Assembly (NCBI GenBank): GCA_026874595.1
Contig: CM049306.1
Span: 31,637,019-31,701,018, forward strand
Source of the DNA: Sipunculus nudus
Taxonomy: Eukaryota > Annelida > Sipuncula > Golfingiida > Sipunculidae
DNA length: 64,000 nucleotides
Direction of reading: 5' to 3'
Both the position numbers and the translations under genes were made by a program. Below are positions 1,934 through 63,510 of this stretch, in pieces (within the stretch, counting starts at the first letter, position 1; each line of letters begins with the position of its first letter). The notes beneath the pieces are model-generated. The model was not told where the DNA came from and ran no database searches. It saw only the letters and a program-made list of their open reading frames with translations.

Positions 1934-2008
<75 letters not shown>

Positions 2009-5657: not shown

Positions 5658-5967
5658 TGATCATAGGAATGACAAGATGATTGATATTTTATAGGTCACC
5701 TATTCACTTAGGTATTTCTACAATCGATAAGATTGGACCAAAATGTGTTATTAAAACATTTGTTTCCATTCACCCATTTGAAATCATGTTAGTATTACAT
5801 TAAAAAGCGCGCCTTTTTGACATTAAGGAAATTTCACAGCAAATCAAACTTTTGCACAGTTCATTATCTGCACATTTCATTATCTGCCTTATTAGGTGAT
5901 AGTTATCGCAACCGTATGTTTGCAGTTTACATAACTGTGCAAGAATAATCACACTCAGTAAATGACA

Positions 5968-12169: not shown

Positions 12170-13830
12170 CAACAAGAAATCCGTAGTCGACAAGCGACAA
12201 CGTGTCTTCGCTGAAGTATGAGTGGTACGGGTGAAGTGACGAATGGATTGAGTGGTATGTCACACCACTGCTCAATATAGTCAACTTAAACTCTGAGAAA
12301 GGTCATTTATTAATTCAACAAAAGCATCTGCCGCCACCTGTCTGGTTTACGTGACAACTTTCCAAGATTGATCAACTTTCCAAATTTTAGAGCAATACCT
12401 TGACCTTCCCCAGAGATATGAGCAATTTACACCTAAAGCATATGTACTAATGGACGCTAGGGAAACCGATTGCAGATTGCGCCACCAGTCTTGAGTACAA
12501 GAGTCCCAAATCTATGGATATGCACAATTTTAGGCCAGTACTGCTAATTACTCCTGAGAAAATGACATTAATTTATTCTACGAAAACGGAAAGGTAGGTT
12601 GCGCCACCTGTCTTGTTTATGAGATAACTTTCCAAGATGGATGAACATGCCACATTTCAGAACAATAGCTTTAGCCCAGCAAAAATGAAACTAAAATGAA
12701 CTTAAGAACCCTGACAGTTTCCAGGGCTACAGCCATTCATGAGGTGTCCACGTGCAGTCTGGAGGGTCATGGCAATCGTGAGGTGATCACATGCAGCCTT
12801 GAGGGGCATTGCACCCTTGAGGTGTCCAAATGCAGAGTTGACCTAATGACCCCTGGCAAACTCCATGTGCACTCATTGACCTCTTGACCTGTACCTGGTG
12901 TAATTGATAAAGACTTACTATTAGTTACAAGTGTAACTTCAGCTTACTATGACTCTATCAAAATCAATGAACCCAATCTATTCTTATAAAATTGAGAGAA
13001 CTTATAAATTTCTTGTGAAAGCTTAAACCATTCAGCTTCAATTTTATCATGAATTATTTTTAAGGTGATTGAGGCTAAAATTACAAGGTTTTTGCCATAA
13101 AATGAACAGGTCGATGAAGTTGGCACCACAGACTTTCAGTTTCAAACATTAGATCTGTTGCAACATTTGCACAAAACAGTTTTCCCAACTTTTCCCCCAT
13201 AAAATGATGCAAGTGGCGACAAAAAAGCTATATCCCAGAACATTTGAGAGGTGACTGATTTTTGTGTAAATTTTGGGGATGTTAGCTCCTGCTGTTCCTG
13301 AGAAATTAAAGGTTAATGTACTGATAACCGATGACCCCTGCACAAGAAAGGTTGATGCAGGTGGCGCCACCAATACCTAAATTTCAGATATGACTCATAT
13401 GACCAACATTGGCATAATATTTGGTGATGATAGCTCCAGCAGTTTCTGAGACTGCAATTTTAGTATGCTTTTTCGACGAATGACAAAGTTCAACTTCCTG
13501 TAACTCGGCCAAAATCACCAAACTAGGTCCATTGGAAGAGAGTTGAATGGGATTGTTCTGGGAATATTCTGAGAAATATTGGACAATTTGGCTGATTAGT
13601 TTCGGAGAAAAGGATTTTAAAAGTTTTTTTTTAGCTTTTTCCCTATAAAATATAAGAAAATGCAGTTAGCCAAAAAAAAAGCAAAATCCGATATAGTTGT
13701 TTAGATGACTAATTTTTCGCTAAAAATTTGGTGATGCTAGTTCATGCCATTTTGGAGATAGTATGGGTTAACGTCAGACGACGGACGACGCCACACAATT
13801 GCATAAGCTCACAGGTTCGCTAACAGGCGT
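12170..13830 (+). repeat. Composite repeat element R1 (GGTGGCGCCACC family)
   Basis: Starts with a head containing GTAGTCGACAAGCGAC and GAATGGATTGAGTGG, shared with 52158-52242. The core has repeated GCGCCACC-type sites (about 12332, 12480, 12602, 13360) separated by segments with related phrases (CAAGATGGAT, GAGATATGAGC). It ends in a GACGACGGACGACG stretch near 13778 and a weak hairpin to about 13830. An imperfect ~45-bp repeat lies inside at 12735-12840. No coding potential, so probably non-autonomous. Confidence 0.6.
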
Positions 13831-20387: not shown

Positions 20388-20830
20388 GGGGTCATGACTT
20401 CTACTAGGAGAATGACCTTGACCTTGAATAATTCAATTTTTTGTTAAAATCACACAAAATTTTAAATATCTCAAGAAAATCAAAAGATCCAAAAATCAAA
20501 GGACTATTATCCGTTTCTTGTTTTCGCGCCTTTTAAAACCCCCATCTTTGCCACCTGACCGTATTTTGAGCATTAATGCGGGTTATGGGATGAGATATAT
20601 TTAAGTTTGGGTCATGACCTTTACCATGAGAGTGGCCTTGACCTTGAATGTTTCCATATTTGGTGAAAATCACACAAAATCCTTAATATCTTAAGAAATG
20701 TTGCATATATTGGTCCAAAAATCAAGTTGACCAATATCTTGGATAGCTTTGTCTTCTGCGAGAGACAGACTGGTGGCGTCACTTGTTGTCCTTCTTGTTT
20801 TTTAATACCCCCTTCATTACTTCTTGACAG
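20388..20830. repeat. Duplicated ~221-bp unit with CCTTGACCTTGA motif
   Basis: GGGTCATGAC starts at 20388 and 20609. Both units share GACCTTGAAT..TT...AAAATCACACAAAAT and AATATCT.AAGAAA. The first holds TGACCTTGACCTTGA at 20413-20427 and the second TGGCCTTGACCTTGA at 20633-20647. Confidence 0.65.
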
Positions 20831-22125
20831 TACTATGAGCAATATAAAGTAAAATAAACTATCTAAGGAGTTCATGGTAAAATCTTGGAAACCCTAAATA
20901 AGGTTGCTGGAAGTACTCCTTCTCATTGTTCAACGCTCCTTAACAAATATTTTTCATCAGAGCATAAATAACACCAATAATTCATACATGTGTCATCGGC
21001 ATGTCAAAGTCAGCTGAGCGTCATGACATATGAGCCACTTGTTAGGTGAGGGGGCCTTCCTGAAGAATTCTTGCTTAACTATTTATATATACTGTATATG
21101 AACCACATGAAACAAAAATATTACATGTACAAATCTCAGGATTAAATTATGCGACAATCAGTCACTACCAGCTCATTAAAAATTGTTCGTCTTGCAGAAC
21201 CGTAGATTTTCCACAGTTGCAGCTAGTATAAATAGTTAACACAACAACATTCCCGTGATAGGTGAAAATTTTGTTCGACACGGCATGCCTAAAGTTAATT
21301 TGTATTTTAATCACCAGTAGATAAGGCAATACACAAGTTTATCTAAAATCCTACTTGAAACATGTATTATTATTAGAACCAAATTGTGTTTGTTGATGCA
21401 CTAAGTACCGTGTGGAGGGCCTCAGGCACTTCTTCAGAGTAACAAACTAAGCCGCTGTTTATCAAAAAATTTTTTTATATATATTTATACTTTTTTTCAT
21501 ATTTGTATTTTAATTTATTAAACCTGAAATTGTAAAAAAAATGGTGGATCATGTGGCATGTTCTCAATAAGCCCCGTTAAGGCCGTGTGCACAAGACATT
21601 CAGAGCATTAGGGTAATAACCATGATGGACTCTCATAATGAAGAGTCCCCTGTAGGGAGGGAGGCTCATATGGGTCGATGTGTAAGTAAATTATTTCTAT
21701 ATTCACATTTAAGTAAAAACATTGTTGATTGACCTTCATGAGTCCCCCTTCTCTGCTTACATTATATACCCCATATGGCTGATTTTAAATGGCTGAAATT
21801 TAAAAATTTGAAAGTGTAAGTCTTAGGTCCCAAATTTGCATCAGATATTTATTTTTGACATTGCCCTTATTCCACAAGCAATACACGCCCTATCAGTTAT
21901 CAATTATCGCTCACTTCTGATCCTGTTTGCTCCAGATCTCCGTTTGGCTGATTTGTCAAACTGCCGTTTGGTAAAATATCAGTCATAGCCTTGGAGAGGG
22001 GGTTTAAGATCACTGGGTTGGGGGTTAGTGGCGGGGACTAAGGGAGGATGTTGTAAAAACTTCTCTTGCGATTGCTCGGCGATTGCTTACATAAAGGTGT
22101 AAGTGTAATATTTGTTTTTACACAG

Positions 22126-37500: not shown

Positions 37501-38884
37501 GTATGCCGACTGGAAAAAAATGTGGGATTCAAAATATACAACACCTTTGCCTCCTTGAGGATCGGATCCAGAACGGTGTCCCTTGACTTAACTGCCCGTC
37601 TAAGAATTCTGGTACTGTTAACTGGAATCCAACGAAGGAATGGCATGATGTCTAATTCCACTCCGAAGCCGGGCGTCATGCATATTAGCATGTCCTCAAC
37701 CATGCTTTCAATATTTTTGGCTTCCAGTGAATTCCTTTCAACTTTTCTTCCAATACACTGTAAAATGAAGAAGATAATAATACCTGCCTCTTGGATCCTA
37801 GATACCTTTATCATTGGACTACCAAGAAAGAGCCTTGGTGATTTTATTTATGTCATACATTATGGAATGTGTACGGAATGATCATTATTGTATGGTTAAT
37901 CCAGATAGGGCCTTTGAGATCCTGTCGATATAAAAAGTTACATTTATCCAAACTTAGGAGGGATTTACTGCAGTTAAAGCTCAATGCGAAGAAAAATCGG
38001 CAGGTTGAATATATGAAGCCATACGTAAAACCGATCCAAGATATTCCAATAATTGAAAGTCCTGTAAGCGAGTATTGCTGTGATCAAAGAGGATAGAAGA
38101 TGACCCAGAAAGTTGCAGAAGAGCCGAAGAAAATCAGTGTCTTAATTTATGAAACAACAACATACAAGTTAGTTATCAGAATTACTTATACTATTCAGCA
38201 AACACTGGCAGTTGGCATAAAAACATTATTATAATAACATTGTAATATCCATTTAAAGTAAAAGAGACGTGTTTCTCATTCACAGTGAGAATGCGCCTGA
38301 ACACCAGGTACACCCATTATTTTTAGCACACTTACCAAAGATGCAATGATATTCACCAGGCTAAGTCTGAGACCAAGTTGAGGGTTCGTTGGTTTTCCAC
38401 AATTTCTTTCGTATTCTTCAACCAGCTCCTCAAGTTCATCTTGAATTAGCTGCTGAACTTCGATGTTTGCTTCACCATATGTTTTTATGCTTGCATGTAC
38501 AGCCTTTCTCAGACATGACCAAGATTTATCAGAAGGACTAAATATCACATCTCTTGCTTTATATGTTATTTCACTAACAACGTACGATGCCGCACTACGG
38601 CTGGCGAAATCATCTACCTTGATGTTATACGCCTCATGGATGAGCGCTGGAGAGCACACGACGAGAATTTCAGAGCCCATCAAATTAATTCTGAAGATAC
38701 CACCGTACTTTTTGCTTAACTCCGACAGACCCTCATGTAAGGCTGGAGCTTTCAGCTGGAAAATGTTCCCGAACAAAGGCACTCCTCGTGCCATTGGAGG
38801 CTTCCTTCGACTGAAGTCCATAATCCATCCGTAGATGTAGGGCAAGATGATAACTACAGCAAGTGATACGATAATCTCCCACAT
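34362..38884 (-). CDS. Cytochrome P450, CYP2-clan-like, six exons, about 516 aa
   Basis: A heme monooxygenase anchored in the ER membrane. Exons in transcript order: 38884-38336, 37757-37491, 37234-37096, 36774-36512, 36277-36156, 34572-34362, all GT-AG and in frame. Seen: N-terminal anchor (residues 1-22, MWEIIVSLAVVIILPYIYGW), a short hinge KPPMARGVPLFGN, C-helix W122xxxR126, I-helix AGVATT (318-323), ExxR as ETLR (375-378), PERF (428-431) and heme loop FGAGPRFCVG with Cys458. Length and motif order are typical of animal microsomal P450s. The fourth exon most plausibly ends at TCG|GTGAAC, which joins GGYDIDKDTS to IIINMWEAN. An acceptor (TTTTTATAG) lies just before the ATG, so a noncoding 5' exon is likely upstream. 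Odd: Ala replaces the acidic residue of the AGx(D/E)TT motif. The substrate cannot be told. Confidence 0.92.
34740..34968 (-). mobile_element. tRNA-derived SINE fragment
   Basis: The reverse strand reads GATGTAGCCTTGTGGTTAAGG (A-box-like, given from 34957 leftward) and then GGTTCGAAACC (B box) near 34895-34906, spaced as in a tRNA-type pol III promoter. The acceptor arms do not pair, so it is a SINE head and not a tRNA gene. It lies in the last intron of the P450. Confidence 0.6.
35390..35730. repeat. GGTGGCGCCA-type repeat remnant in P450 intron
   Basis: GGTGGCGCCA near 35434 and ATGGCGCCAC near 35686, separated by phrases (AGATGGATAGACATGCCA, GAGATATGTGTAATTTTACA) that also occur in element R1 (12640-12660). 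Intronic, minus-strand gene. Confidence 0.55.
36156..36277 (-). CDS. P450 exon 5, PERF region
   Basis: IIINMWEANHSSDWGDPWVF then QPERFLDKEGLLNENDLRRP, phase 2 end GG|GTAGGT. The WGDPxxFxPERF block is diagnostic for P450s. Confidence 0.9.
36512..36774 (-). CDS. P450 exon 4, I-helix and K-helix
   Basis: Starts GC GTA GCG ACT ACA, completing AGVATT, and continues through LQEEIDRVIG and LNAVVLETLRYVSVTALTPR to GGYDIDKDTS. ETLR is the ExxR motif. Confidence 0.9.
37096..37234 (-). CDS. P450 exon 3, leading into I-helix
   Basis: Encodes ETFNPNSLRGFVDMLIQTQQ, then a hydrophilic linker and DEHILGSMMDLFVAG. Ends in phase 1 (GCA G|GTCCGT), so the I-helix motif is split across the intron. Confidence 0.88.
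37491..37757 (-). CDS. P450 exon 2
   Basis: 89 codons, CIGRKVERNSLEAKNIESM to FFSSRHTDGN, acceptor TTTTACAG, donor GTGAGT. The F-G region includes LDIMPFLRWIP. Confidence 0.88.
38336..38884 (-). CDS. P450 exon 1
   Basis: 183 codons from ATG at 38884, covering the membrane anchor, hinge, A-C helices (SWSCLRKAVH) and up to VNIIASL, with donor GTAAGT. The start is supported by the hydrophobic N-terminus directly at the Met and by a splice acceptor about 10 bp upstream. Confidence 0.92.
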
Positions 38885-39498
38885 GTTGCAAACCTATAAA
38901 AATATTAAACAGCAAAGTAAAATATCATTTATACTTAAGAGATCAAATTCAGTGTGAGAGTTTGTGCTGGTAAAATGTCTCATATTATCTGTGACTGTAT
39001 TACTGCATTCATGATCAAATTCAGTGTGAGAGTATTTGCTGGTAAAGGTCTCATATCATCTGATTTATATTACTGCATGCATTACCTTCTTAACTGATTA
39101 ACTAATTAATGAGATACAGGCTTATTGCACTGAACAATGACATACATTGAAATTCATATTTCCAAGAATTAAATATATTGTATATCAAACTTAAATAATT
39201 TCCATATCTAAACATATGGCGGCTTATTATTTTTCATAGATTGGCATAAAATGGATGAGAGAGCGATAACACAAAAAGGTTCCATATGATATGATTCTTT
39301 TCTTTGTAGGAAAACATCCACTTATGACTCTCTAAAATGGTTAACTTATTACTAACGTTCACTTATGTTTGCAGAATGTATTGGTAATTCTGTGTTTTGG
39401 CAAGTGACATAAATATTTACTGAAATGCAATCTTTGGGCATGTTTGAAGGATGCAGGTCATCTGTTCTTATGTAAAAGCTGAACTATAAGAATGGTTA

Positions 39499-39797
39499 TA
39501 TAAAAAAGGTATGGTTCTCAGGCACTTTTTTCAGAAGTAAGTGCGGGCGGGCGATATTTTATTTTTGACCTCCTTTATAAATCGATAAAAATGTCATATG
39601 CTCGTGGGAAGGCATGAAATATCACCATTTTTATTGCTTAACAGGTAAAAGCACTACATAACAAAGAAAATATTATCGAAATTGTATAATCTTATCTCCT
39701 TGAAAGCCGGTTGAACATCAAAATAAAAATTTTGTTTGTGGGGGTTAAAATTGACGCAGGCAGTGCCTGGAAACCATACCTTTTATTTTGTTAGGCC
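39499..39797. mobile_element. MITE copy 3
   Basis: AAAAAAGGTATGGTTCTCAG followed by GCACTTTTTTCAG at the left; CAGTGCCTGGAAACCATACC and a TTAGGCC end at the right. Same orientation as copy 2. Lies about 0.6 kb upstream of the P450 start. Confidence 0.72.
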
Positions 39798-40974
39798 AAA
39801 GGTATTATCCGAATATTCACCCGTGAACCGAGAAAAATGTTATTCTAAACTGAGACAGTGAGCTTACAAGTCTGTAGACTGTTAGAGGATTTGATGTGTG
39901 GTGGATTCGGTCGTAGTTCCAGTCGTAGACTGTATTGTAGACGTAGCGATTTAAGATAATTTTGTTTATCCTCTTTTAAGAGGATTATCTTGATTTTATC
40001 GGTGTAGTGCCTCTATCGACAGGATGTACTTGGCTTGTCAGTAGAGTAGCTTATGGGATGATATATATTTTCAATTAGAAAACTCACCTGAACCAACGTC
40101 AGCATATAACTACAGAGAATAAAATGTCGGAGTTAAAGAGGTAGTCACGGGCTTTACAGGAAGGTACACCCTATAGTGATTTATTTAAATACAGGAAACT
40201 TGTTAAGTGTTGTGGGACTTGCAGCTAAGACTCCATACCACTGGCTTTGTGTAGACAGGAAATAAGTAGATTTCAACTAGCCCTATTAGAATGACATGTA
40301 TTGAGTGTTAGGAGAGAAGTGAAGTGTATACCTGAGGAATACAGAAAATCTCTGGAGGCAGGATTTAGAAATTGGTTTAGGGTAGAGTTTTTTGCCTCTA
40401 AGATTCTAGATATCTTTAAGATCGGGAAATACGACCAAGAAACAGCCTTGTTTTTTTTCTCATGACATACATTATGGAAGGAGTCATTATTGGTTATGAT
40501 TTATGTGGTAAATCCAGAAAGGGTTTTTGAGACCGTTCCTTAGGAGGGATTTAATTTAGGTAAAACTTAATAAGATTGAAATTGACAGGTTGAGTGATGA
40601 AACCATACGCAAGACCGAAGGAGGTTTTACCCCAGTACATTCCTAGATATTGAACCAGCTTGACCAAACGACAACGACTAACGACTTTAATGTAGCAGGG
40701 ACCCATACCATCGTAACTCCGTCATAATCCTTGTTCGTTATCTTCGATTTGGAAAGGCGTTAATTGTACAAAATTAAGGTGAAAAAGTGCGTGGATAATG
40801 GAATCGTTTGGGAAAGTCTATATTTTTACTGTGATCAGTATCATTTGAAAAGCGTTACAGATAGTTACGGAGGTTCATTTCAATTCTTTGATTATTTCAT
40901 TTCGATCTAAATTTGGAAAAATCTTTAAAAAACATAATCTCCTGGCAACTGGTGGCAAGCTAGATTGTAATTTA

Positions 40975-43983: not shown

Positions 43984-44329
43984 AAAAGAAAAAGAAAAAT
44001 GTATGGTTCTCAGGCACCGCCCTCGTCAAAGTTAACCCCGCATAAAAATATTTTTATTTTTATTTTTAATAGAAACCTACCAATTTGAGCTCCAGCCGCT
44101 CAAACATGTCTTACTAGGAGATAAACTAATGCCATTTTGATTAAATTTACTTTCTATGTATTGTTTTTACTTGTTGAGCAAAAAAATTATGTTATTATCC
44201 TGCTTTTTCCTGATCATATGACATTTGTATCGAAAAAATAAAGTAAAAAAAATAAATAAATAATAAAAAATCACCCGCCCGCATCGATTTCTGTGTGCCT
44301 GAGAACCAAACCTCAATTTTTGGGCCTAG
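43984..44329. mobile_element. MITE copy 4
   Basis: TATGGTTCTCAGGCACCGCC at the left and GTGCCTGAGAACCAAACC...TTGGGCCTA at the right, in the same orientation as copy 1. Begins about 100 bp after the 599-bp element. Confidence 0.72.
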
Positions 44330-48870: not shown

Positions 48871-51800
48871 GTGTGCTGTCTATCTATTCGGGTTAACTGT
48901 TAAATAATGCAAATGTTTTTCTTCCCTAAAATTAAAAATCTTATTTCGATCAACTTATATGTCTCATTTGATACACTGACTGATCACAGAGATATGCTCC
49001 TTATGTATGCCTTTACAAATGACCAAGCAATCAGTTTATTGGTCTACGAAACGTCTAAAAATCGTTTATTGTTCATTTTCATATATGTGTGTTAACTACT
49101 TGGTAATTTTCATACATACCTTGTCACAAAAATGGGTTCTTTTCTTAATTGTGTTTACTACTAGGTGTTTGTTATACATACCTTGTCAGAAAAATGGGTT
49201 CTTTTCAATTAAGTTCATCAAAAAGGAAAAAGAAATAGCATTTTAACAAACCTCTTAACCAAACGTGGGGTGTAAACACAATCCAATGTAAACCCTGAAA
49301 GAACCATCATATTTCGAACCCTGTTTTGCTTGTCATTTGGAGATAAGACTCGATTGACATCTTGGACTATGATCTGTAGCCGTCTTTTGAGCTTGAGTAC
49401 TGCTTATCCTGACAAGCTGGGCTTGCTTATTGACACTTAAACAATGCGAGCCAAGGTAGCCAGATGGTCTATTTACTACTTGACATTGGCGTCTGAGTGT
49501 GACACGTACAGACTTGATATTTTGCATTAAATCCACTGTTTACAGATGGTAGATGGATGAGAGTAAACCAAGAGGAAGGGAACAGAAGCATCATGATATT
49601 GATTCGTGCTTCACAACTGTCACTTGCATTCACATTTCAGTTAATGAACGAGACCAAAATAATTCCACCAAACAGGTCTTGCTTATCTTCAGAGTGTTCT
49701 TTTTCACAAACTAATAGGGATAAAGCTATCCAATTATGCACATATGTATTAAATTAAAACGTGATTTTAAAACAAGTTCCTTTTTCTTTTTTCCATATCT
49801 TTTTTATAAAGCTTCTTCTTCATATTTGATTGGAACAGAGGGGTGCACTGTTAAATTTATAATTATATTTGCTAATTTAAAGAGTCTTTTTTCATTTTAA
49901 GCAACAACTGACTGTATATAATTGTAATTTTTCGCATCTCATATTGTATAAAACTGTTAGCCGGCAATGCTTATTGTCTGACCAGGCTTCTATGCATTAA
50001 TACGTTATGTAAATATATTTAATAATAAATAAGATATCGAAAATAAATGCACCTTTATAAGTATATAGTATAAATTTACTCTCCTTGTTTTTTTTCGGTA
50101 CAGTTTGTAAAGGTCTCTCCTCTGAGTTCTTTTTATTAAGATAACAGTCACTTTATTATTACGGCCAAAATGGAATTAAGATAAATTAAACATATTTAAG
50201 TTATCTAACTTAAAGATTCTTTGTATGTGGAATCAAAGGTACATCAAGACAAACATTCCCGGTGCAGCTGAGGGCAAGCTCAAGGGCAAAGGAATTGCTG
50301 TAAAGGACAACATGGCGGTCGCAGGTGTTCCATGGAGTGTCGGGTCCAAGTTACTTGAAGGATACATCCCTGAGTTTGATGCAACTGTTGTGACGCGGGT
50401 ACTGGATGAAGGCAGGATTAACTTATCATTCATCCATCAGGTGGTTTGGTATATCCTAACCCCTTAGAATGTTTCCCTCTCCGTAACTCAAACAGTCATG
50501 AAAGGAGTTTCATGATATTTAGGGAAACACCAAGGGAACAACCATTGAATTTAGAAGGTTTTTCCTATTTATTTCTTTTCAATCAAAACAAGTATAAACG
50601 TACTTCTAAATGATGAAAAGGGATTACAAATGAAACAATAACGTTTTTTGAGGTAACTAGTCCGTATCGAAAACAAGTAGTTCCCAAAAACAAAAATATG
50701 TCTATTTGACAGGTTGCATCATTATGGGCAAAGCTTCAGTTGAAGACTTCTGTATTTCTGTAAATTCATTCACTTCCTCTTTTGGGCCGGTCTTGAACTT
50801 CTACGACAAAACTCGGAGTTCCGGCGGCTCTACTTCCGGGTGCGCAGTACTGGTGAGAAAATTTGTAACAAGAAATATAAAAAGTGACTGATTAACCTTG
50901 ATTTTATTAGTATTGTTTATAAATAAATACAAAAAATACTCTTGTACAGAGACGACTGTTAGCCGACTGTTATCTTATTTGTCTCTCTGAATATTTTCTA
51001 ATTTTGAACTTTTTCTTTTTGAAAACGAAGACTTAAACCACACCGTCAAGACTTATTGTTCGGTTTTATAACTTAAATGATATTTAATATGTATGTGTGA
51101 AATCAGGAAAATCAGCTATAATATTCTCCAAATCTGGTAATAAGTATTACTTTGAAAAAATTAAAAAAAAAGACTTAACCGGTGTTTAACTGATATATCA
51201 CAATGTATGTATGTTTATAAAACCATAGAGACAATTTCCTTTGAATGACCTTGCATGCAGTCTTATTACATTATGAGCTTTCACTTTTATTTTCTCATTA
51301 TAACAATATAAACATTTCAACACCGCATGTGTTTGTTGCGTCTATCTGACCATAGAATACATCATTATAATCTGTTTGAGCAGTTTCTAAATATGAAATT
51401 TACTTCACGGTAAGATATGCGAATTCTGCTAATCATATGTACCTTACTACTTAGCTTGCCAGTGGTGAGGTAGACCTGGCCCTCGGCGGGGACACCGGCG
51501 GGTCAATCCGAGTGCCTTCCAGCTGGAGTGGAATTGTGGGATTGAAACCAACCTTTGGATTGGTGCCTTTGACAGGAAGTATGCTTATTGAACCAATGCT
51601 TGATCACCTGGGGCCCATGGCTCGCACTGTTCAAGACTGTGCACTTCTACTGGAGGTAGGAAAATTCCTCAATAAGTTTTTTCAAGAGTACATCTTCTTA
51701 GCCTGTCAGTAATGTTGTTTAACAGTAATTTTTCGTGAATATGATTAAAAATGCGATCGGTATTAATCTTCCAGAATAATATGAACTTAACAATCCGCGA

Positions 51801-52157
51801 TTTGAGTTTCATTAATTTCGTTGGCTGCTAAGACCTGACTGAAAGACCCGCCTTGCCCGGCCTAATAAGTGGTTTTATTAATAGCCAGATAACATCCATA
51901 CAGCAAAGCACTACGACTATTGTTATTTAATAGTGAAATAGAGAAACAATGGAATAACATTTCTTCTACTGTTTCAGTAATTTGTTTGTATCATAAAATA
52001 GTTTGACGGTGTCCACAAACACACATATAAGTAAACGCTCCTCTAATGTCAATTACTTGTACTTATTGTCAAATCATTAGGATTTGAATGGTCTGTGATT
52101 CTCATGCAAGCAGGTACAGTAGACACCGGGCCTGGGTGACACAAATATAAAAATAAA

Positions 52158-52905
52158 ACTAGAATACGGGTAGTCGACAAGCGACTACGTGTATCCGCCG
52201 AAACCAGAGTGGGACGGGTGAAGTGAGGAATGGATTGAGTGGCAAGGGGAAATAGAGATAGGTGTGTTGCACATTAGCATGGACGTCTGTAGCCGAAATG
52301 TGTATGTAGGTGGCGCCACCTGCCACAAAATCCAGAAAGTTATCCAAGTTGTATACAATTGCAAATTTTCATGAAGATAAGTCAAACAACTGCCGCGATA
52401 TGAGTGATTTTATCCCACGGCAGACAAACAGACGGATGCTGTGCATAAATGATTAGAGGGTGGCGCCACCAGTGTTGCGTATGATAAAGAACTATGTGAG
52501 ATCTATACACATGCAAACTTTCAGGAAGATACCTCAAACAAGTCCTGAGATATGAGCCTGGATGTCTGCAGCCTGAACGTGAAAGAAGGTGGCGCCACCT
52601 GCCACAGAATCGAGAAAGCTATCCAAGATGTATATACATGCAAAATTCTATGCAGATAGGTCAAACCACTGCCGAAATATGAGTGACTTTATCCCATGGC
52701 AGACAAACAGACGGAAGCTGTGCAAAAATGGTTGCAGGTGGCGCCACCATTTTTATGTATGTTATAAAGCTATCCGAGGGTTACATTTTCGCAAAGATTT
52801 AGCCTGATCGGTCAAGCTGTTCCCGATATAGCAGTTAACATGTGACCCGATCATAAATCCGAATTTTAACAAGTGACCCTTGGGTCATTACGCTCAGCTG
52901 ACTTG
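52158..52905 (+). repeat. Composite repeat element R2 in amidase C intron 5
   Basis: Head with GTAGTCGACAAGCGAC and GAATGGATTGAGTGG, then exact GGTGGCGCCACC at 52309, 52459, 52588 and 52737. The segments between alternate as two types, giving a superunit of about 280 bp. Each carries 'CAAATTTTCATGAAGATA' or 'GCAAACTTTCAGGAAGATA' and 'GAGATATGAG'-like phrases. Ends around GGGTCATTACGCTCAGCTGA near 52881-52900. Confidence 0.75.
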
Positions 52906-52984
52906 GAAAACATTCGCAAAAGGAAATTTTATCATCTGAATGGTAGTATATACCCATTCAACTGAAGCATCAAACAGATTAACC

Positions 52985-54760
52985 AACAGGCCAAGACTGT
53001 GTCTGTATTTATATATCTCAAAAATAGAGAAAAAATGCGTAAACTTTAAAAATAAATACAGGTGGCTCCACCAGTCTGCAGAAACTAATAAAAACACTTA
53101 ATGGTCAATATCCATGCAAAGAATCATGGTGATCTCTGCATAAGTTGTTCAGATACTTCAGCTTTTGCATCAAATTTTCCATTATTCTGAGGGATACTTC
53201 GGAGTCCTATAGCTTGAAGGATATGGGTAACAGAGACCTAATTTCAGGTTTCCACAGAAACTTTTCATGGGCCTCCTTGCATGACAAGAATGAAGATTCT
53301 AGGTCCAGTTGTTACAATTTCTATCATGTTAACAGATGACAACATCCTTAAAGGTCTCAAAAATAGAGAAAAAAATTTCGAAAAAATTCAATAAAATATA
53401 GGTGGCACCACAAGTCTGCAGAAACTGATGAAACACTCCATGATCAATATCCATGCAAACAATTATGGTGATCTCTGCATTCAGATACTTCAGCTTTTGT
53501 ATGTAATTTTACATTATTCTGAGCTGTACTTTGGAGTGCCATAGCTCAAAGGATATGGGTAACAGAGACCTAATTTCAGGTTTCCATGGAGACATTTCAT
53601 GGGTCTCCCTGTGTGTAAAGAATGAAGATTCTAGGTCCAGTCGTTACAATTTGTACCCTGTTGACAGATAACTACACCCTTAAAGGTCTCAAAAATAGAA
53701 AAAAAAATTGTAAAAATTTGAAAAAATACAGGTGGTGCCACTAGTCTGCAGGAACTGATGGAACACCTCTTGATCAATAAGTATGTAAAAAATCATGACC
53801 ATCACTGTTGTATTTAATGAGATATTGTAGTTTTTGTATGAAATTTTTTACTATCCTGGGGGTACTTTGGGGCCCCAGAGCTCAAAGGATATGGGTAACA
53901 GAGACCTAATTTCTGATTTCCATAGAGACTTTTCCTAGGTCTCTCACTGTGTCAAGAATAAAGATTCTAGGTCCAGTCTTTACGATTTGTGCCCTGTTAA
54001 CAGATTTTCACATTTTTAAAGGTCTCAAAAATAGAGAAAACAATTCGAAAAAAATTGAAAAATACAGGTGGCGCCATCAATCTGCAGAAACTGATGAAAC
54101 AACTCATGATCAATATGTATGCCAAAAATCATGACCATCAGTGATGTATTTAATGAGATATTGAAGTTTTTGTATAAAATTTTTGACTATTTTGGGGGGT
54201 ACTTTGGGGCCCCATAGCTCAAAGGATATGGGTAACAGAGACCTAATTTCTGGTTTCCATAGAGACTTTTCATAGGTCTCTTACTGTGTCAAGAATGAAG
54301 ATTCTAGGTTCAGCGGTTACGATTTGTGTCCTGTTATCAGATGTTCACATTTTGAAAGGTCTCAAAAATAGAGAAAAAATTCGTAAAAAATCGAAAAATT
54401 CATGTGGCGCCACCAGTCTGCAGGAACTGATGGGACATCTCATGATCAATATGTATGCCAAAAATCATGACCATCAGTGATGTAGTTAATGAGATATTGA
54501 AGTTTTTGTATGAATATTTTTACTATTCTGGGGGGTACTTTGGGGCCCCATAGCTCAAAGGATATGAATAACAGAGACCTAATTTCTGGTTTCCAAGAAG
54601 ATTTTTCATCGACCTCTTAGAATGTTAAGTAACAAGATTCTAGGTCCAGCGGTTACGATTTGTGCCTGGTTAACGGACAGACGGACAGACAGACGGACAG
54701 ACGGACGACGGACAAAGAGTGATCGCTATAGCTCAGCATGACTGAAAGTCAGCTGAGCTA
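52985..54760 (+). repeat. Composite repeat element R3, ~335-bp tandem units with terminal hairpin
   Basis: GTGG..CCAC followed by AGTCTGCAG-AACTGATG recurs near 53062, 53402, 53732, 54068 and 54403 (periods 330-340). Units share GGATATGGGTAACAGAGACC, GATTCTAGGTCCAG and GGTCTCAAAAATAGAGAAAA. The array closes with a GACGGACAGACGGAC run near 54676-54715 and a hairpin at 54730-54759 (AGCTCAG/TGACT pairing with AGTCA/CTGAGCT). Confidence 0.85.
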
Positions 54761-54775
54761 AAAAATTATGCCCAG

Positions 54776-54827
54776 TGGTTCCGGAGGAGTTCTCCGGAAC
54801 CCTATTAGGCGGCGGCGGCGGCGGCGC
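54776..54827. repeat. 10-bp perfect hairpin followed by (GGC)n
   Basis: GGTTCCGGAG, loop GAGTT, CTCCGGAACC at 54777-54801, then a run of GGC triplets to about 54826. Lies 17 bp after the terminal hairpin of R3. Confidence 0.75.
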
Positions 54828-55090
54828 ACAAATGAAAACATAGTATACGATGACAGGAGGCGAGCGCTTCCGCCCTCTCACGTAGTCCCAAACCGAAATG
54901 AAAAAGAAATTGAAAAATGGAAGCTGTTATCTTTTTATTTTTCCTTTTTATTTATATTTAAAAAAAGCATCTTGCTTGCATCTTTTTTGATTGTCTCTTA
55001 CTGAATTTGGAACTAGATACGGTCGTGATGTCAGTGGATCTTGTAAAGTGAGAGTTATATCACATTTTATAATGGTAGTTCTCTTATGGA

Positions 55091-55146
<56 letters not shown>
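55091..55146. repeat. (TA)n microsatellite
   Basis: About 56 bp of TA in intron 5 of amidase C. Confidence 0.95.
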
Positions 55147-55148
<2 letters not shown>

Positions 55149-56287
55149 CAAAAATACATATTAAAATATTCTGGAATCGTCAGTATCCTGTCGTGTATCT
55201 CTTTATGAACAAAACTTGGAAGATCAGTTATTTTTGCTCTGCCTCTGATTTGAATCCTCAGGATTAATAGCTTCACTGTCCCCACTTCTGATTGAATTCA
55301 TTCACTACATTTAACGGCCATTTTAAGTGCAGCTTGTTATTATCAGTATGACGAAGGATAAGCATATTATGTTACGTGATCTTTTTGTTGCCTCCACAAA
55401 CAGGGGTATACATTCATCGCCCTTCCTGTTATGTGCGAGTGTTCGCAAATGGACAAATGTACAATCATTTATGCACGAATGAAAGTGGGACCATAAATGC
55501 GACAAGATTTAATCGTTTTCCTCAAGCTTCAAGAATTGATATATGTTATTCTGCATTATTATATGGTTCTAGTCTCTACTGCCTAGGTATCATACTAGTT
55601 CCAGTATGTGAATGATCACAGTCAGAGAAATGTTTGAATGTCTAAATGTTTGAAAAGCTGACAGTACCGAAAACATGTAAACTTTCGTGATGGTTTGGTT
55701 TAGAATGCAAATCAATGTCTCGTAAAATTTGTAACTGGTGTTAAGTAAGTTCCTCATTATTGAATTTTTCGCTAATTGGAATGATAATTTTCAGGTGATA
55801 GCTGGCTACGATGGACTGGATGGCAGGCAAAACCCACACATTAAAAGTCAACAGTACTCTAAAGCGGTAATATATTAAGTTATGCATACGAAATATAATG
55901 ATTCGTTCTATGAGATCTTCGACTAAACAGCGAAACACGATTAGAGACGATATGGTCAATGATTTGTAATTAGCTCCTGTTTCAGCTACCTAATGTGTCT
56001 TAAGCCGTAACGTTTAAGGGAACTAACAATTATACAATCTATAACACCGTTGTCTAACGTATTGAAGTTAAAAAATAAGGCCCTAGGTATTCGTATCAGG
56101 TCTAGGATCATTGGTGTTCTCTGGGTCCTCAGGTGTCTAGAGAAAACATGACCCTACCATCTGCCTCATGGAATGTGCAATGTATTATTTATAACAACTA
56201 TTGTATGATCCATGAAAAATAAAGTTAAAAAAATTTACGGGAATAAATGTCAGGAGTAATCTTTATTAATGTAAGGAGTTTTTTAAG

Positions 56288-56419
56288 GTGTCCAGTGTTC
56301 TGACAGGGATGAAGATAGGCCTCCTTACTGAGGGGTTTGAAGATGCTGAGCCAGATGTGGAATCAATGGTACGAGTAGTGCAACAGTGCAAGAAGTGTCT
56401 GTTCCCATGCATAAAGATG
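56288..56419 (+). pseudogene. Amidase C exon 7 with 25-bp deletion
   Basis: Starts GTG TCC AGT, encodes [20 protein letters not shown] and continues to MVR, then loses 25 nt relative to 3425-3581. The frame shifts so that the conserved VSVPMHKD block is read as [14 protein letters not shown]. Confidence 0.85.
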
Positions 56420-57399
56420 GTCAGTGTAAGAAGTATATTGCCTCCCGTTTGCTGACACAAAGTTACTCTGATATGATTCGTTGAGTTTAATTTGCGTCAC
56501 CCATTGCATTTTTTACAGATATTTAAAAGTATTTTGAATAATAGGTAACGTACGCTCCCCTGGCAGCGGAAATCTTGCGCTTCTAAAGAAGCAACTGATT
56601 TTCACGCTGCCAGCTTTGACCGTTTATGATATATTTAGACACCAGATGGCGGTTCGTTGTCCGCTGAAAAATACGTGCGTATGATGTGACAAGCAGCCAA
56701 CCAGATGCCAATAAACAAACACTCGACAGGCATCCTGGCTCCGCCCATAGCTGCGCTTCAAACGCCGCTTTATGAGTTTACGGTCGAATTTTAATTGCTC
56801 CCTCTGCATTATGGCATCATCGACCGATTCGATTATGACATTATGACTGTGTTAGCGTAGCCATGGATCTGTTGTCTGCAGAACTGAAACCAGCCAGCGA
56901 GGTGTGCAAGTATACCCTTTGTTGTCACGTTTCGTTTGAATTACAGCTCACCGGCCGGGCATCCTATGTGCTCAAGGCCCTAAGCAAACCACGTCAGGGG
57001 CAATTCTCTCTGAGCCTGTGGCCTGTTACCGGGGCGATGAGCTGTCAATCAAAACGAAATGATTATGATTGGCCCCGTGTATTCCTCGCTTGGCAGTGTC
57101 TTCCAGCACAAAGTCTCACCTGATTGGACAAAAATACAGTGCTCCCCTCTGGTGTAGCAATTCAGGATACGAGGTCATAACAAACAGCGCTTGGGATATA
57201 GGTACTAGGCCTATAGTTAAAGCGCTGTGTAAAGAGCGTATAGGTAACGGGAAAAAAACATGTGGCCCATGGGCCATGACGCTCAGCTAATTTTGTTCTG
57301 GCGCTCATTTCTTTTATAAATGTTATCTATTGTCTGTGAGAATATCCTATGGCTAATGTTACTATGTTCATAAATGGACAGAAAATAAAAGCTTCAGGA

Positions 57400-59690
57400 T
57401 ATTTAAGAGACCTGCCCAGGACCCCCCCCCCCCCCCCGGGTTTCCCAATAGAGGGTTTCAAGGAAAATTGATACAATTTGTACTCTGTCTGTCTAGGTGA
57501 TAAAAATCATGATTCTTGTCCAATTTCAGGTTTCCAAGGAAAATTGCCAAGGACTTCACTGAATGTCATGTTAGAAGTGTCTAGGGCTAATGGATACAAT
57601 TTGTGCCCTGTCTGACTGCTCAAAATCATGCTTCTGGTCAGTAGCCTGCAGAATATAGGTTACCATGACCTAATTTAATAGAGATTTGCTCATGACCTTG
57701 GCGTAATGCATACAATTTGTACCCATCTGACGTTAAAGGTACTCAAATCATGTTTTGGCCTGTCACGTGCAGGTTTCGAGTGGGATTTGTGAAGATCTCC
57801 CTTGATGTTGTATTTAGGGCTTAAGGATACAATGTGTGCTCTATCTACCTGTAATTGACATGTATTGTAAACATTAAGTTACCTATTTCAAAGAAGTCAT
57901 GCCAAAGACTTCCCTAGACTTTTCAACAAAAGGTTAAAAATAGATACAATTTTCTCTTGTTTGTCTGGTGCTCAAACTCATGTTTTAATTTTTCTCATTC
58001 TCATAGCGCACAGAATATAGCCTGTGCACCATGCGTAATTTCTGGATTCCAAAGAGATTTACCTATAACCTCCCTGGATGTTACTTTAGAAGATCCTAGG
58101 CCCAATGCATACAATTTGAGCCCATCTGACATTCAGGGTCCTCATATGACACCTTTTTCTCTGCAGGTTGCCAAATATAGGTCACAATGACCTAATTTCA
58201 TGTTTCCAAGGAAACTTGCCTGGAACCTCCCTGAATATTATGTTGGAATATTCTAGGTTTAATGGATACATTTTTTGCAAATCTGTCTGGGTGCTCAAAA
58301 TTATTTTTTTCTGCCAAAGTTGCAAAATATAGGTTACCATGACCAAATTTCAGGTTTCCAAAAAGATGTGCCTAGAAATTCCCTGGCTTTTGTGTTATTG
58401 TGGACTTACCAGACACGATTTGTGCCTTTATCTGACATTCATTGTGCTCATATGACATCTTTTTCCTATAGGTTGCAGAATATGGGTCACCATGATCTAT
58501 TTCATGTTTCCAAAAATATTTACCTCGGACCAACCTGGAAGTCATAATAGAAGATTCTAGGTCTAATGGATACAAATTGTGCCTCCTTTGACTGTTAAGG
58601 TGCTCTCAACCATTTTCGGCCTATAGGTCACAGAATATAGGTCACCATGACCTACTTTCAGGTTTCCGAGGACATTCGCCAAGGATTTCCATGAATTTTA
58701 TGTTAGAAGCTTTTAGGCCTAATGGATACAGTTTGTGCCACATCTGACTGCCCGGGTGCTCAAAACTTTGTTGCTGCCTAAGTTGCAAAATATAGGTTAC
58801 CACGGCCTAATTTCAGGTTCCCAAAGAGATATGCGTAGATTCTCCCTTGTTTTTGTGTAAGAAGACTTGGACTTAACAGACACGATTTGTGCCTATCTGA
58901 CATTCATGGGCTCATATGACACCATTTGCTATAGGTCACAGAATACAGGTCATCATGAACTTCTTACATGTTTCCAAAGACATTTGCCTAAGACCAACCT
59001 GGATTTTTATGATAGAAGATCATAAGCCTTATGGATACAATTTGTGCCCATCTGACGTTCAGGGTGCTCCTAATCGTGTTTTTGTCCTAAGATAACAAAA
59101 TATAGGTCACCCTGACCTAAAGTCAGGTTTCCAAGATGAGTTGCTTAGAAACTCCCAGGATATTGTGTAAGGAGATTCTAAGCCAAACAGATACTACTTG
59201 TCACCAACTGACATTCAAGTGCTCATATTACATCTTTTCCCTAAAGGATATTGTGTTAGAAGATTCTAGGCCTAACAGATACAATTTGTCCCCATCCATC
59301 TTTCAGGGTGCTCAAATGAAATCTTTTCCCTATAGGTCACAGTGACTTTATTTCAGGTTTCCAAGGACCGCTCTAAATGTCAAGTAAGAGGATTCAAGTC
59401 CTAATAAATACTATATGTTTCCCGTCTGACTGTCTGGCCTCTGGGTCCTCAAAATCAGGTTTTCGGCGCGTATGTCACAAAATATAGGTCACCATGACCT
59501 AATTTCACGTTTCGAAGGAGATTTCCCTATGACATCCCTGGATTTACAGTTAGAAGTTTCTATAGGTCTAATGATTACGATTTGTGCCCTGTCAACGGTC
59601 GGGCGGCCAGACGGCCGGACAAGCGGACGGCACGCCAGACAAATGGTGATCGCTAGAGCTCAGATGACTTACAGTCAGCTGAGCTAACTA
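57400..59690 (+). repeat. Composite repeat element R4, ~150-bp tandem units with the same terminal hairpin
   Basis: The phrase AGGTCACCATGACCTAATTT then CAGGTTTCC recurs in varied form near 57533, 57663, 58186, 58333, 58483, 58636, 58796, 58951, 59105, 59336 and 59486. 'GATTCTAGG' and 'ATGGATACAATTTGTGCC' recur with it. It ends in a GACGG-rich run near 59600-59640 and a hairpin at 59657-59685 with the same two stems as R3 but a different loop. Lies in intron 7 of amidase C. Confidence 0.82.
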
Positions 59691-61029
59691 GGGCCCGCTT
59701 AGTCAACCACTTATCCGTCATTCCTTCCGTCTGTGCGTCTGCATCTAAAGAAGCATTCAAGCAATTACTGTGGGAATTTTACTTACAGCGGATGTGCGCT
59801 ATTGAATTTCAGACCAATAGGTAGTTTAATATGGCTACAAGGAAAATATTATTTTTAAATCCTCTTGCGTGCTTTTTCCCAGTAAACGTTTGAGACATTG
59901 ACATAATAGTTTCAAAGGCTGGTCCGTTTGAGATTGTGATAAATTCTAGACCACTCTAACACCCAATATGGCCATATGATTGCAATTATGAGGAACTTGG
60001 TAGCACAAGGCCCAACCAAGGACACTAAGGGTCCAGTCATTTTTAGTGGGAAATATACGAATCGCAATATTGGCCGATACGTTAAGTGAATGCACATGTG
60101 GTCCCACCTCTGAATTCTAACATAAAACTAATGCCTCATACTGTATGAAGTATTTTTACATGAACGTATGGAAGAAATATAGTTTTTAGACACTATTATA
60201 AAGATCAGCTTATGTTCTAACAGCTCGGTTGTTTTATTCAGCTCAACGCTATATATTTCTATGCAACGTATTCCTTCGGCTTACTTATCTCGGCTAATAA
60301 TCACAGACGTAATTGTGATACCCATTCATCATTATATGAACTGTCACAATTTATTTTCTCAATATGTGATCCTTACAGAATTTCTTGACTAATAATATGT
60401 AATATGTAATGCACTTATTGTAAATTTTATTCTGCTTCTTCCAGCTTTAAATGTATTTTTGCTTGTGGAAATGTCAGGCGCCTATCAGGCCATGGTTGAC
60501 TACGCTGGTAAGTTTTCCATTGTTAACTTTGAAAATTATTCTTGCTTTGTAATGACAAGATACCACCCTTATTCGTACTCAAGTGACACGTTTGAATATT
60601 CAAGAGAGAGATCTGTCAACTAAGGCTATAATAGACCATAATGCTGACAGCAGGTTAGAAGTGTTAAATGTAACATGTTAACATATTTTTTTAATTAATC
60701 ATATAGGCGCTACCGTGGGAATGAGGGGTTTTCAGCCCACATCCTTAGTTGATGCCGTTTCAAGAGGCATCAGAACCAGACCAAATGACCCTCCTAAACC
60801 TGTGATAGGTACCTGTATGTTTGGCAGATACATGAAGGTAGCATAATCAGATATATATTTATCTCCTTTTCCTTTTTAAATATATATTAATGTTATATGT
60901 ATATTAGGAAGAACCTACATTTCTTTCCATAACATACAGCCCTTTTTGTCGTTCAGTTAAAGTCCTTATGTAAAATATGTTGTTTAAAGAGCACAATTAC
61001 CTCGCATGCCTTATTAAGTAGCCGGGTCA

Positions 61030-62147
61030 AAACGATGTATACGAAAAATAAACGTCCGCCTTCAATTGACGCGGCGTTTTGTTTAGGGGGCGGCTTCCAC
61101 AAAAATTTTTATGTTTGCCGCCATGTCTTTTCCCGTCTTTGTGATGCGTCCATGTCATATTGACCGATGGAGATTGTTGTATGAATTTCTATTTTTTGTG
61201 TGTGTTAATAAAATGTGTAATTCCTCTATTAATTCCTCTTTAGACGTACGTGCCACGTCTTGTTTTTCCTTACCTAGAAGCAAATATTCCTGATTCGTCC
61301 ATTATTACAGCCTGTCACCAATCTTAACACACGGACGCAGATATATTGTCAACAGTAATAGGGCTATCACTAACGCAAGTTTTATATATATCACCACTGT
61401 CAGTGTCACGCCAATCATGCCCGCGTTTCCAATGTCACCAAAGACCACGCTTCCGAGATAAATTGTTTAAAATATTATTTCCCTTTTGTTGCCGGTCACT
61501 ACAACAGATGGGTTGCCTACAGTCAACGTCACTTACGAGTATATCATAGTTCAAATGCGCTTGAATACACTATATATTAAGCCGATTCCGTCAAAAGTCG
61601 GTAAGAAAGTGTCATAAAAATAAATTGCGCAGTGCCATCATACGTATCTACCCACCATATTCTGATGGAACCAATGTACGTGGTGCACAATTATTAGAAG
61701 AGCCACTGCATGTTCAGATGGAAATCATGTTATCAAATGCACGTGGTGCAACAATTCAACGGGACAACCTAACGAAACGCCGCGATACCTGCGAGAGCCC
61801 TTGCAAATAAGATCCGGTGGATAACTGTAATATCCCCCGCTGTGATTCCCCGTAAATTGTGTTATATTAAGTGCGAGATTTAGCGTTTCCCATTTGACAT
61901 CTTAGGATATTTGGTGAACACAGTTCGTTTACCGGCGATGTTCTCAACTGCGTCCCGATCGATTTTAGTGATCAGCGAGTTTGTTTTTTCGGCGTGTTGT
62001 TTTTTGCTTTTGTCTGCCAAGTTTTAAAATGTATTTAAAAAACGCAGGCTTTAAATAGACGCCGGTTTTGTTTAGACGCTTGGTCAAAGCCAGGTCCGAA
62101 AAAAAATAAACGCCCTTGCGTCTAATCAAGGAAATACGGTACATATG
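61030..62147. mobile_element. ~1.1-kb dispersed element in amidase C intron 9
   Basis: The right end reads CTAATCAAGGAAATACGGTA, the inverse of the left end of 40975-41400, and the internal blocks at 61148-61290 match that copy in order. Both ends carry AAAATAAACG..C and GTTTTGTTTAG words. The matching intron of copy A (4244-4764) is about 1.1 kb shorter, as expected for an insertion. Confidence 0.55.
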
Positions 62148-62451
62148 TTCTGTATCATGTATTCTTGAATATTGCCCGCTCGTGCGTAGTCCATGCATTG
62201 TATTATCTGATGACCGATGGTTCTACAATGCAACATAACTTACAGATTGTTCAAACCTAAGAGATTGGCATTTCCGAGTTGTTGCCAAAGAGAAGTCACG
62301 TGTCACCAGTCATAATATAGGTGTGCATGCACAATAAGAGATTAGTCACTAATGATATGCATGGATAATGTGTACCAAAGATGCTACACTTCTGTGCTTC
62401 ACTTGATTTAAAACTGCGTCACCACATCAGGACTTCCTATTAATTTTCCAG

Positions 62452-62609
62452 GATAATTACAACTACCATTACTACACGAAAGGTGTGAATTTGATGCGAA
62501 CGTTGGAGAAGGCGTATGACGTTTGCTCTGGAGACATATGATGTTCTGGTGTTGCCGACGGTAAAGTTCAAGTCCGATAAACTTCCCACAAGCGATCTGC
62601 CAGCAGCCG
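62452..62609 (+). pseudogene. Amidase C exon 10 with 1-bp insertion
   Basis: Matches 4765-4921 ([23 protein letters not shown] in copy A) but reads GACGTTTGCTCTGG where A has GACGTTGCTCTGG. The extra T brings TGA into frame at 62539-62541. Confidence 0.85.
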
Positions 62610-63510
62610 GTGAGCCATCTTTATTTATCTTTCAGTGTCAAAACTAGAAATTCTTAAATTATGTTCAATTATAATTGAATTTTTCTCTTGTCGTTGTAGA
62701 GAAAATAGGGACAAGAATTCTTCTGGGGATAACCATTTGCATTAATTAATGTATTATCTATGGAGTGCCTATATATTCTCATACAAGACATATGTGATCT
62801 GTCGTGCCAATCTAAAACGTAGGCACAAGTGTGAGGAGATATCTGACTGAATACTAGAAAAGGGCATCTTAATTCCTTTTCTGAGAGGTCCTTATTATTT
62901 CGTGTTTGTTTACAGTGTACTAACAGCTCCATGTTTTTGTCGGCCAGCTTCAGATCTGGGTCCATTTTGTCTCTCTTTATATACATACTAATATTCATTC
63001 ATGTTACTTTTAAATATGGTACAATTTTGTAGCAGTGGAACTGTATAATCTTTGCAAAATAAACATCTCTTTTTACAGAATACATAGATAAAGTATCCAG
63101 GAATCTTGTTAACACCTGTGCTTTTGACCTTACTGGTCATCCAGCCCTGATTGTTAATGCAGGCTTCTCTGAAGGTCTCCCGGTCGGAATCCAGCTCGTG
63201 GCGAAGCACTGGGATGAAGCGTCATTGCGGAAGGTCGGACGGGCGATGAAGGTTACTCGTGATGTCTAGTAACCATCGACATAATTGGAGCAAAACTATA
63301 GTAGAGGTCACCTATTTACTTGGGTATTTCTACGTTGGATTAGATTTGACTTATGTGAATTATTTTTTTTATAAATGCTAGTAACATACTTAAAGCAACC
63401 TGAGAAATAAACAACTTTAGTAATTTTTCTTTAATGCATAATTGCCTTGTCGCTATCTGATATTTTTATTTTACATCGGATGGGCAACAGTTATTGACCT
63501 CTGTTTATAC

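Follow-up and report, generated by a model that had tools for sequence, protein, structure and literature searches.

Probable non-autonomous Helentrons carrying satellite-like tandem arrays, one nested in another, in a Sipunculus nudus contig

A 64,000-nucleotide stretch of Sipunculus nudus contig CM049306.1 (C1:31637019-31701018, hereafter the window; genome 1.43 Gb, 153 contigs) contains repeat-rich segments, named R1 to R4, which raise the question of whether mobile elements keep their ends while swapping their tandem cores. The initial annotation had read all four as a single non-autonomous mobile family, in which a shared head and a shared terminal hairpin enclose unrelated, exchangeable cores. 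We found that the interval from R2 to R4 very probably holds non-autonomous Helentrons (HINEs), in minus orientation, with short satellite-like tandem arrays. There are at least two families, which differ in their subterminal inverted repeats (subTIRs) and 3' hairpins: one is represented by R2 and the other by R3, with R4 alongside. Feature coordinates are collected in Table 1.

We searched the same genome for copies using R2 and R3 as queries. First-look candidates, mostly unscored in both cases, numbered 13,047 for R2 (40 scored, 67 matches) and 15,584 for R3 (39 scored, 77 matches). A genome-wide collection of this kind had been proposed in the initial annotation, and the sampled copies show defined ends and a preference for insertion at TT. 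The end pairs of the elements are TTAGCTCAGCTGACT...CACTTG and ATTGTATCCGCC...GTATTCTAG, each followed by TT.

R3 has both of its ends. On the minus strand, R3 and R4 share the same anatomy: a 5' subTIR beginning TTAGCTCAGCTGACT, its inverted copy, a GTCC-type microsatellite, the array, and a right end consisting of AGCTGAGCGT, a palindrome and CWWG followed by TT, where CWWG is CTTG in R3 and CATG in R4. The subTIRs of R3 pair perfectly over 13 letters (0/2000 shuffles reach this score), and the 5' hairpin formed by the subTIR and its inverted copy folds as DNA at -12.6 kcal/mol (z -5.65, 0/200 shuffles). R3-type copies start TTAGCTC. Among the 29 loci obtained with the R3 query (the window's excluded), nine carried an R3-type left end together with a full-length right end (L032, L033, L034, L035, L036, L038, L049, L058 and L060), 19 carried a left end and no full right end (a partial one was present at the locus edge of L051), and L040 had neither an R3-type left end nor a right end. 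In the fetched loci lacking a right end, the piece may stop inside the array. In L060 (at ~1505) an R3-type element starts at another HINE-like 3' end, and in L038 (at ~1506) a few letters after one, as if inserted head-to-tail in both cases. In L034, two R3-type left ends (449 and 1506) lie 1,057 bp apart with an identical 30-letter flank; perhaps an inserted end was amplified together with its host array.

The sequence CACTGGGCAGAATTTTTTAAAATTCGG occurs in the left flank of the R2 family, and in the window it is split into CACTGGGCATAATTTT and TTAAAATTCGG, with R3 between them. When the flanks of R3 were joined and compared with R2-family copies L017, L020 and L024, they aligned at 86-89% identity over 97-100 letters, ungapped and with no duplicated target. 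R3 is accordingly an insertion in the left flank of R2, so R2 spans 52159-52869 and 54762-54849; the two are not neighbouring variants.

The R2 family has its own termini, namely NATTGTATCCGCC at the 5' end and a hairpin followed by CCGTATTCTAG and TT at the 3' end. In the genome search, 39 of the 40 first rows (the window's own included) started at query positions 1-3; since the R2 query itself starts at the element end, this end was tested on the fetched loci. In the 27 R2-query loci (all but the window's own), similarity ends after GTCGACTACCCGTATTCTAG and TT, and CTAG is retained in 23. Copies of this family begin NATTGTATCC, and their left flank consists of NATTGTATCCGCCAAAACAGAGTTTTGCGGATAC and a CCG microsatellite and includes an inverted copy of the 5' subTIR. 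The subTIRs of the family pair at 14 of 15 letters (0/2000 shuffles reach this score); the 5' subTIR is known from other copies, and in the window's R2 the outermost ~26 nt, including this subTIR, are not recognisable. The 3' hairpin of R2 folds as DNA at -7.3 kcal/mol (z -1.9), with 5/200 shuffles folding at least equally well. A 3' hairpin or palindrome is present by sequence in R1, R2, R3 and R4, and only that of R2 stands out in the fold test against 200 shuffles; the letters that follow are CTAG in R2, CTTG in R1 and R3, and CATG in R4. Complete R2-type copies (n=26) measure 854-1198 bp, with clusters near 900 and 1,170, from which we infer the gain or loss of one ~279-bp unit. A candidate for a second HINE 3' end, GGGTCACATGTT near 52840, was rejected, as it is part of the R2-family left flank.

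We then compared the flanking letters of the sampled copies, counts that include nested and duplicated copies and are not all independent. TT followed the 3' end in 28/30 R2-type and 14/14 R3-type cases (background TT 0.11), and in 10/10 of the R3-type 3' ends printed from outside the window. At the 5' side, TT preceded R3-type ends in 37/42 cases, and a T stood two letters ahead of ATTG in 34/34 R2-type ends.

To obtain empty sites, we joined the flanks of every element that retained both ends in the sampled loci, 39 in all: 13 were R3-type, among which the window's R3 counts twice, and 26 were R2-type. Junction-spanning matches were found for 17 of the 39, with the same double count, and six of these were clean: the window's R3 (twice), one R3-type element in L034, and R2-type elements in L034, L047 and L026. 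The L034 R3 lies in an R3-type array and has its empty site in L058 (95.8% over 120 letters). The R2-type elements of L034 and L047 lie in R3-type DNA, with an empty site in L060 (95.0% and 97.7%, one-base gap), and probably represent one event, as they share flanks. The L026 R2 lies in a minisatellite (86%, one-base gaps). Two further empty sites are probable, L015, where an R3 lies inside an element with the R1 left end (80-82%, small gaps), and L006 (84-87%). Nine junction entries were set aside as self-hits or for low identity or gaps (L022 twice, L023, L024, L030, L035, L036, L038 and L060). The clean empty sites of both R2- and R3-type elements lack a target-site duplication. The ends, the TT insertion and the empty sites without duplication give good support to a Helentron-like origin of R2 and R3, which had been suggested as a possibility; these two have the fixed ends of mobile elements and look non-autonomous. 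Stop-to-stop reading frames beginning in the R1, R2/R3 and R4 stretches reach at most 94 amino acids, in line with a lack of coding capacity.

Table 1. Features of the repeat elements in window coordinates. HMM searches were run with nhmmer; TRF, Tandem Repeats Finder
Feature	Positions	Strand	Description
R2, 3' part	52159..52869	-	R2-family HINE; 3' terminus 52159, TT target 52157-52158; cut at 52869 by R3
R2 3' hairpin	52170..52188	-	GTAGTCG-cttgt-CGACTAC; DNA fold; present in family copies
R2 3' subTIR	52191..52204	-	GTTTCGGCGGATAC; pairs with family 5' subTIR GTATCCGCCAAAAC, one mismatch
R2 core	52309..52843	-	Four GGTGGCGCCACC-boxed subunits forming two ~279-bp units
R2 left flank, outer part	54762..54849	-	CCG microsatellite, GGTTCCGGAG-type hairpin; local alignment to R2-family left flank
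R3	52870..54761	-	HINE with both ends, nested in R2; 5' end 54761, 3' end 52870; identical ends in other copies; empty sites
R3 3' palindrome and 3' subTIR	52874..52904	-	TGACCCAAGGGTCA; subTIR matches 5' subTIR
R3 array	53016..54676	-	~335-bp units; TRF; nhmmer cross-hits
R3 left-flank microsatellite	54676..54714	-	GTCC/GTCT type on minus strand; TRF
R3 5' subTIR and inverted copy	54730..54759	-	Hairpin; DNA fold
R4	57259..59687	-	HINE-like, ~155-bp units; 5' end 59687, 3' end 57259; both ends resemble those of R3
R4 3' palindrome	57263..57276	-	TGGCCCATGGGCCA; read by eye
R4 array	57393..59590	-	nhmmer
R4 5' subTIR and inverted copy	59657..59685	-	DNA fold -11.1 kcal/mol, z -3.92, 0/200 shuffles
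R1	12173..13823	-	Left end TTAGCGAACCTGTGAGC, microsatellite, boxed core, R2-like 3' end CTTG followed by TT
E21	20667..21041	+	R3/R4-like 3' end beside boxed unit

The ends reported in the initial annotation were recovered with a different polarity. A microsatellite-plus-hairpin end is common to R3 and R4 (54576-54761 versus 59496-59687, 75%, E 7e-28), and R1 and R2 share a head (73 bp at 86%, from 12183 in R1 and 52170 in R2), whose 16-mer has two mismatch-free occurrences; shuffles average 0.13 matches with as many as 3 mismatches allowed. Hairpin and head are opposite ends: the hairpin of R3 and R4 lies at the 5' side of its elements, and the head of R1 and R2 at the 3' side. A further resemblance between R3 and R4, at their remaining ends (52870 and 57259), was absent from that annotation.

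With respect to the cores, the repeated boxes of R1 and R2 were confirmed, with exact GGTGGCGCCACC occurring four times in R2 and once in the R1 stretch, and degenerate forms in R1 and R3. The ~335-bp unit of R3 was likewise recovered (336 bp, 4.9 copies). Each unit consists of a boxed subunit A, which resembles R2 weakly, a subunit B, which resembles R4 strongly, and an A/T-rich spacer. The hidden Markov model (HMM) of the R4 unit matched all five R3 B-subunits (five/five, E 1.5e-10 to 2.2e-16); the R4 units have about the length first given (~152-157 bp), and the claim that they are unrelated to R3 fails on these matches. The R2 model matched the R1 stretch in five places (E 1e-8 to 1e-3), 4/5 R3 A-subunits (E 4e-4 to 0.016), the 20.7-kb piece (E 0.001) and a remnant at 35.3-35.7 kb (E 0.003-0.025). 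R4 and R3-A showed no mutual match, and the reversed window gave no match to any core model up to E 1. In pairwise comparisons of the R3 consensus with R4, three R2 units, 2/3 R1 units and the 20.7-kb piece, 0/200 simple letter shuffles reached the score. The core-model and pairwise matches indicate, at the level of sequence, that the R3 unit joins an R1/R2-type boxed subunit to an R4-type subunit. The picture of unrelated swapped cores was not borne out: the relation of R3-B to R4 is clear, and the boxed unit is common to R3-A, R1, R2 and the ~20.7-kb piece, with weaker statistics. The boxed repeats at 35.3-35.7 kb are flanked by 87-bp inverted arms (34970-35056 and 36059-36145, 73.6%).

It is possible, if rather doubtful, that a few core repeats pass between independent HINE families here or are acquired by them again and again. 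On this reading, the GGTGGCGCCACC unit accompanies two or more end pairs that are unrelated to one another, and the R3 unit is a recombinant of two cores; perhaps one element lands in the A/T-rich spacer of another and the two are subsequently copied as one.

Three further segments resemble these elements to different degrees. The 5' subTIR of R4 equals that of R3, and its palindrome, read by eye, differs from that of R3 by a single paired substitution (G-C to A-T) and a single substitution at the centre. In E21, the 3'-end motif at 21010-21041 has 3/34 mismatches, compared with a best value of 10 in 20 simulated windows, and the boxed unit matches at E 0.001-0.035; its left end was not found. 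The left end of R1 (TTAGCGAACCTGTGAGC, 13823) occurs at five places in four other loci (L053 twice, L048, L015 and L007), always after TTT; the R1 of the window, preceded by CCTG, is an exception to this T-rich 5' flank. Segments of the R1 body recur in L042 at 62-70%, with their order preserved. In the fold test of the R1 3' hairpin, 20/200 shuffles do as well. R1 may have arisen from a single element by divergence or from two by fusion. By eye, the array meets the microsatellite at GTTAAC or GTCAAC in R1 (13767-13772), R3 and R4.

Several observations weigh against the Helentron interpretation. The 3' palindromes of R3, R4 and E21 do not exceed shuffled sequence in fold stability (72/200, 70/200 and 130/200 shuffles, respectively, do as well). 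In R4, the subTIR match is weak, covering 8 letters only, with 60/2000 shuffles reaching its score, and the 5' flank is CTAG, which is not T-rich. The ends of R1 do not pair (1635/2000 shuffles reach the score), and for this reason R1 was not filed as a HINE; in addition, the R1 model found no match in R3. CTAG is missing from 4/27 R2-family loci, and the two exceptions among the 30 R2-type 3' flanks are AA and AT. The link of R2 to R3-A appears much weaker than that of R4 to R3-B and leans on a 12-letter box. The scored copies are the best matches to the window sequence only, and no autonomous Helentron was found, no search for the Helitron Rep-like family (PF14214) having been possible, so that such a partner is putative. 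Finally, the sampled copies are diverged, and recent activity is neither shown nor excluded. The mean Kimura two-parameter (K2P) distance of 3' ends to the consensus is 0.067 for R2-type (n=31) and 0.042 for R3-type ends (n=12, the window included in both), yet the closest R2-type pair is identical across ~74 letters of the 3' ends; the closest R3-type pair differs by 0.035.

On the Helentron model, as drawn from the literature on these elements (PMC4067079 and PMC7492417), an autonomous Helentron elsewhere would supply Rep/helicase in trans, nicking the elements and copying them by rolling circle. The 3' subTIR, palindrome and CWWG would be read as a stop signal, and the copied strand would be joined into T-rich DNA. 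In the window, the arrays would change length inside the elements and share ancestry, and a boxed ~140-bp unit (R1, R2 and R3-A) and a ~155-bp unit (R3-B and R4) would have been joined into the ~335-bp unit of R3.

The strongest competitor holds that R1 and R2 are canonical Helitrons, with 5' TC, a 3' hairpin plus CTAG and insertion between A and T, and that only R3 and R4 derive from Helentrons. R2 does terminate in a hairpin and then CTAG, and oyster Helitron-like elements with CTAG ends, some of them with subTIRs, have been reported as possible intermediates (PMC7992393, in the part considered here). We nevertheless regard this as unlikely. The family starts NATTGTATCC, not TC (R3-type copies start TTAGCTC), and its left flank combines a 5' subTIR with the inverted copy and a CCG microsatellite. 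The insertion sites do not fit the A-T junction of canonical Helitrons, with TT at the 3' side in 28/30 and 14/14 cases and at the R3-type 5' side in 37/42. The assignment of R2 itself to canonical Helitrons on the basis of CTAG and a nearby A-TC junction was ruled out by the family's left flank. The single family of the initial annotation, with conserved ends around exchangeable unrelated cores, is less probable still. In its favor, R3 and R4 have similar ends and different unit lengths, and group 2 of the oyster Cg_HINE elements is described, in the sections compared, as having related flanks and unrelated repeats (PMC7492417). However, the subTIRs, 3' hairpin and left flank of R2 differ from those of R3 and R4, R1 has a third left end, and the R3 unit itself holds both R4-like (five/five) and R2-like (4/5) parts.

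We also consider it very improbable that R2 and R3 are mobilised jointly as a two-array composite, as the oyster double-array elements Cg_HINE_10_13 and _11_12 might suggest (PMC7492417, same sections). R3 has both its own ends at an oligo-T site in the R2 left flank, a site that is empty in L017, L020 and L024, and 26/26 complete R2-type elements measure no more than 1,198 bp, too short for R3, although longer ones could be missed in cut loci. Tandem duplication does occur, as in the doubled left end of L034, which would fit ordinary satellite arrays spreading by recombination without transposition; fixed ends dispersed over many contigs and the clean empty sites for both types of copy make this explanation extremely improbable. 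The same slight probability is assigned to cut-and-paste elements with terminal inverted repeats, like miniature inverted-repeat transposable elements (MITEs). Inverted repeats do lie near both ends, and the pearl elements have been classed as MITEs (PMC5139131, in part), but these repeats are subterminal, the 5' and 3' ends are built differently, and target-site duplication is absent from the clean empty sites.

Non-autonomous Helentrons of this kind are known from oysters and flies. In the parts of the published accounts compared here, Cg_HINE elements of Crassostrea gigas have a left end with a 5' subTIR, its inverted copy and a microsatellite, often GTCY/GTCC/GTCK, arrays of satellite-like units averaging 140-180 bp, and a right end with a 3' subTIR and palindrome; they prefer TT, insert into repetitive DNA without target-site duplication, and have related or unrelated ends and cores (PMC7492417). 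Compared by description only, the Sipunculus elements share their ends, microsatellite, array, TT target and lack of duplication, whereas the ~335-bp composite unit of R3 and the CCG microsatellite of R2 have no counterpart in the sections of that account compared. HINE/DINE-1 elements are similarly described, in the portion used, as having subTIRs near the 5' end, a 3' stem-loop, an unmodified T-rich target and, in some, central repeats (PMC4067079), features that recur here in the 5' subTIRs, 3' stem-loop, T-rich target and central repeats. The bivalve pearl family (CvA, CvE and CvG), DTC84 and MgE are likewise modular, with few satellite-like repeats of ~160 bp (PMC5139131, PMC7492417 and PMC11136912, again by description and in part). 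The C. gigas elements with CTAG ends and some subTIRs recall the hairpin-CTAG and subTIRs of R2; they start TC and mostly insert between A and T, in the part of the report compared, and R2-family copies do neither (PMC7992393). A literature search by motif sequence returned no transposon paper by title, an outcome that does not establish the families as new to the literature. R2- and R3-type elements appear to be new and well-resolved representatives of a kind already described.

These elements add one more genome in which Helentron derivatives with tandem repeats have exact ends and empty sites, and they show that nesting can mimic a mixed-and-matched family. In addition, the composite unit of R3 makes the movement of satellite-like cores between families testable through genome-wide combinations of cores and ends.

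The window is eukaryotic, with exon-like stretches from three related copies of an intron-rich gene (773-5752, 23285-29801 and 50192-63364; matching stretches ~22-33 kb apart). A family scan that covered the first two copies found amidase (PF01425) in open reading frames (ORFs) of both. The R2/R3 and R4 interval falls among exon-like stretches of the third copy. Around R2/R3 and R4, paralogous introns can be aligned between gene copies only beside exons, and the paralogous copies therefore yield no empty sites. Scans of a viral contig collection found nothing, and two matches in bacterial records, from a scan of a genome contig collection, were taken as chance. Between the gene copies, two minus-strand ORFs (36485-36889 and 38276-38893) correspond to cytochrome P450 (PF00067). 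The window also contains a 46-bp minisatellite of 18 copies (32084-32925) and a dispersed repeat in both orientations at 27179-28364, 39497-39800 and 43985-44313 (68-76% identity).

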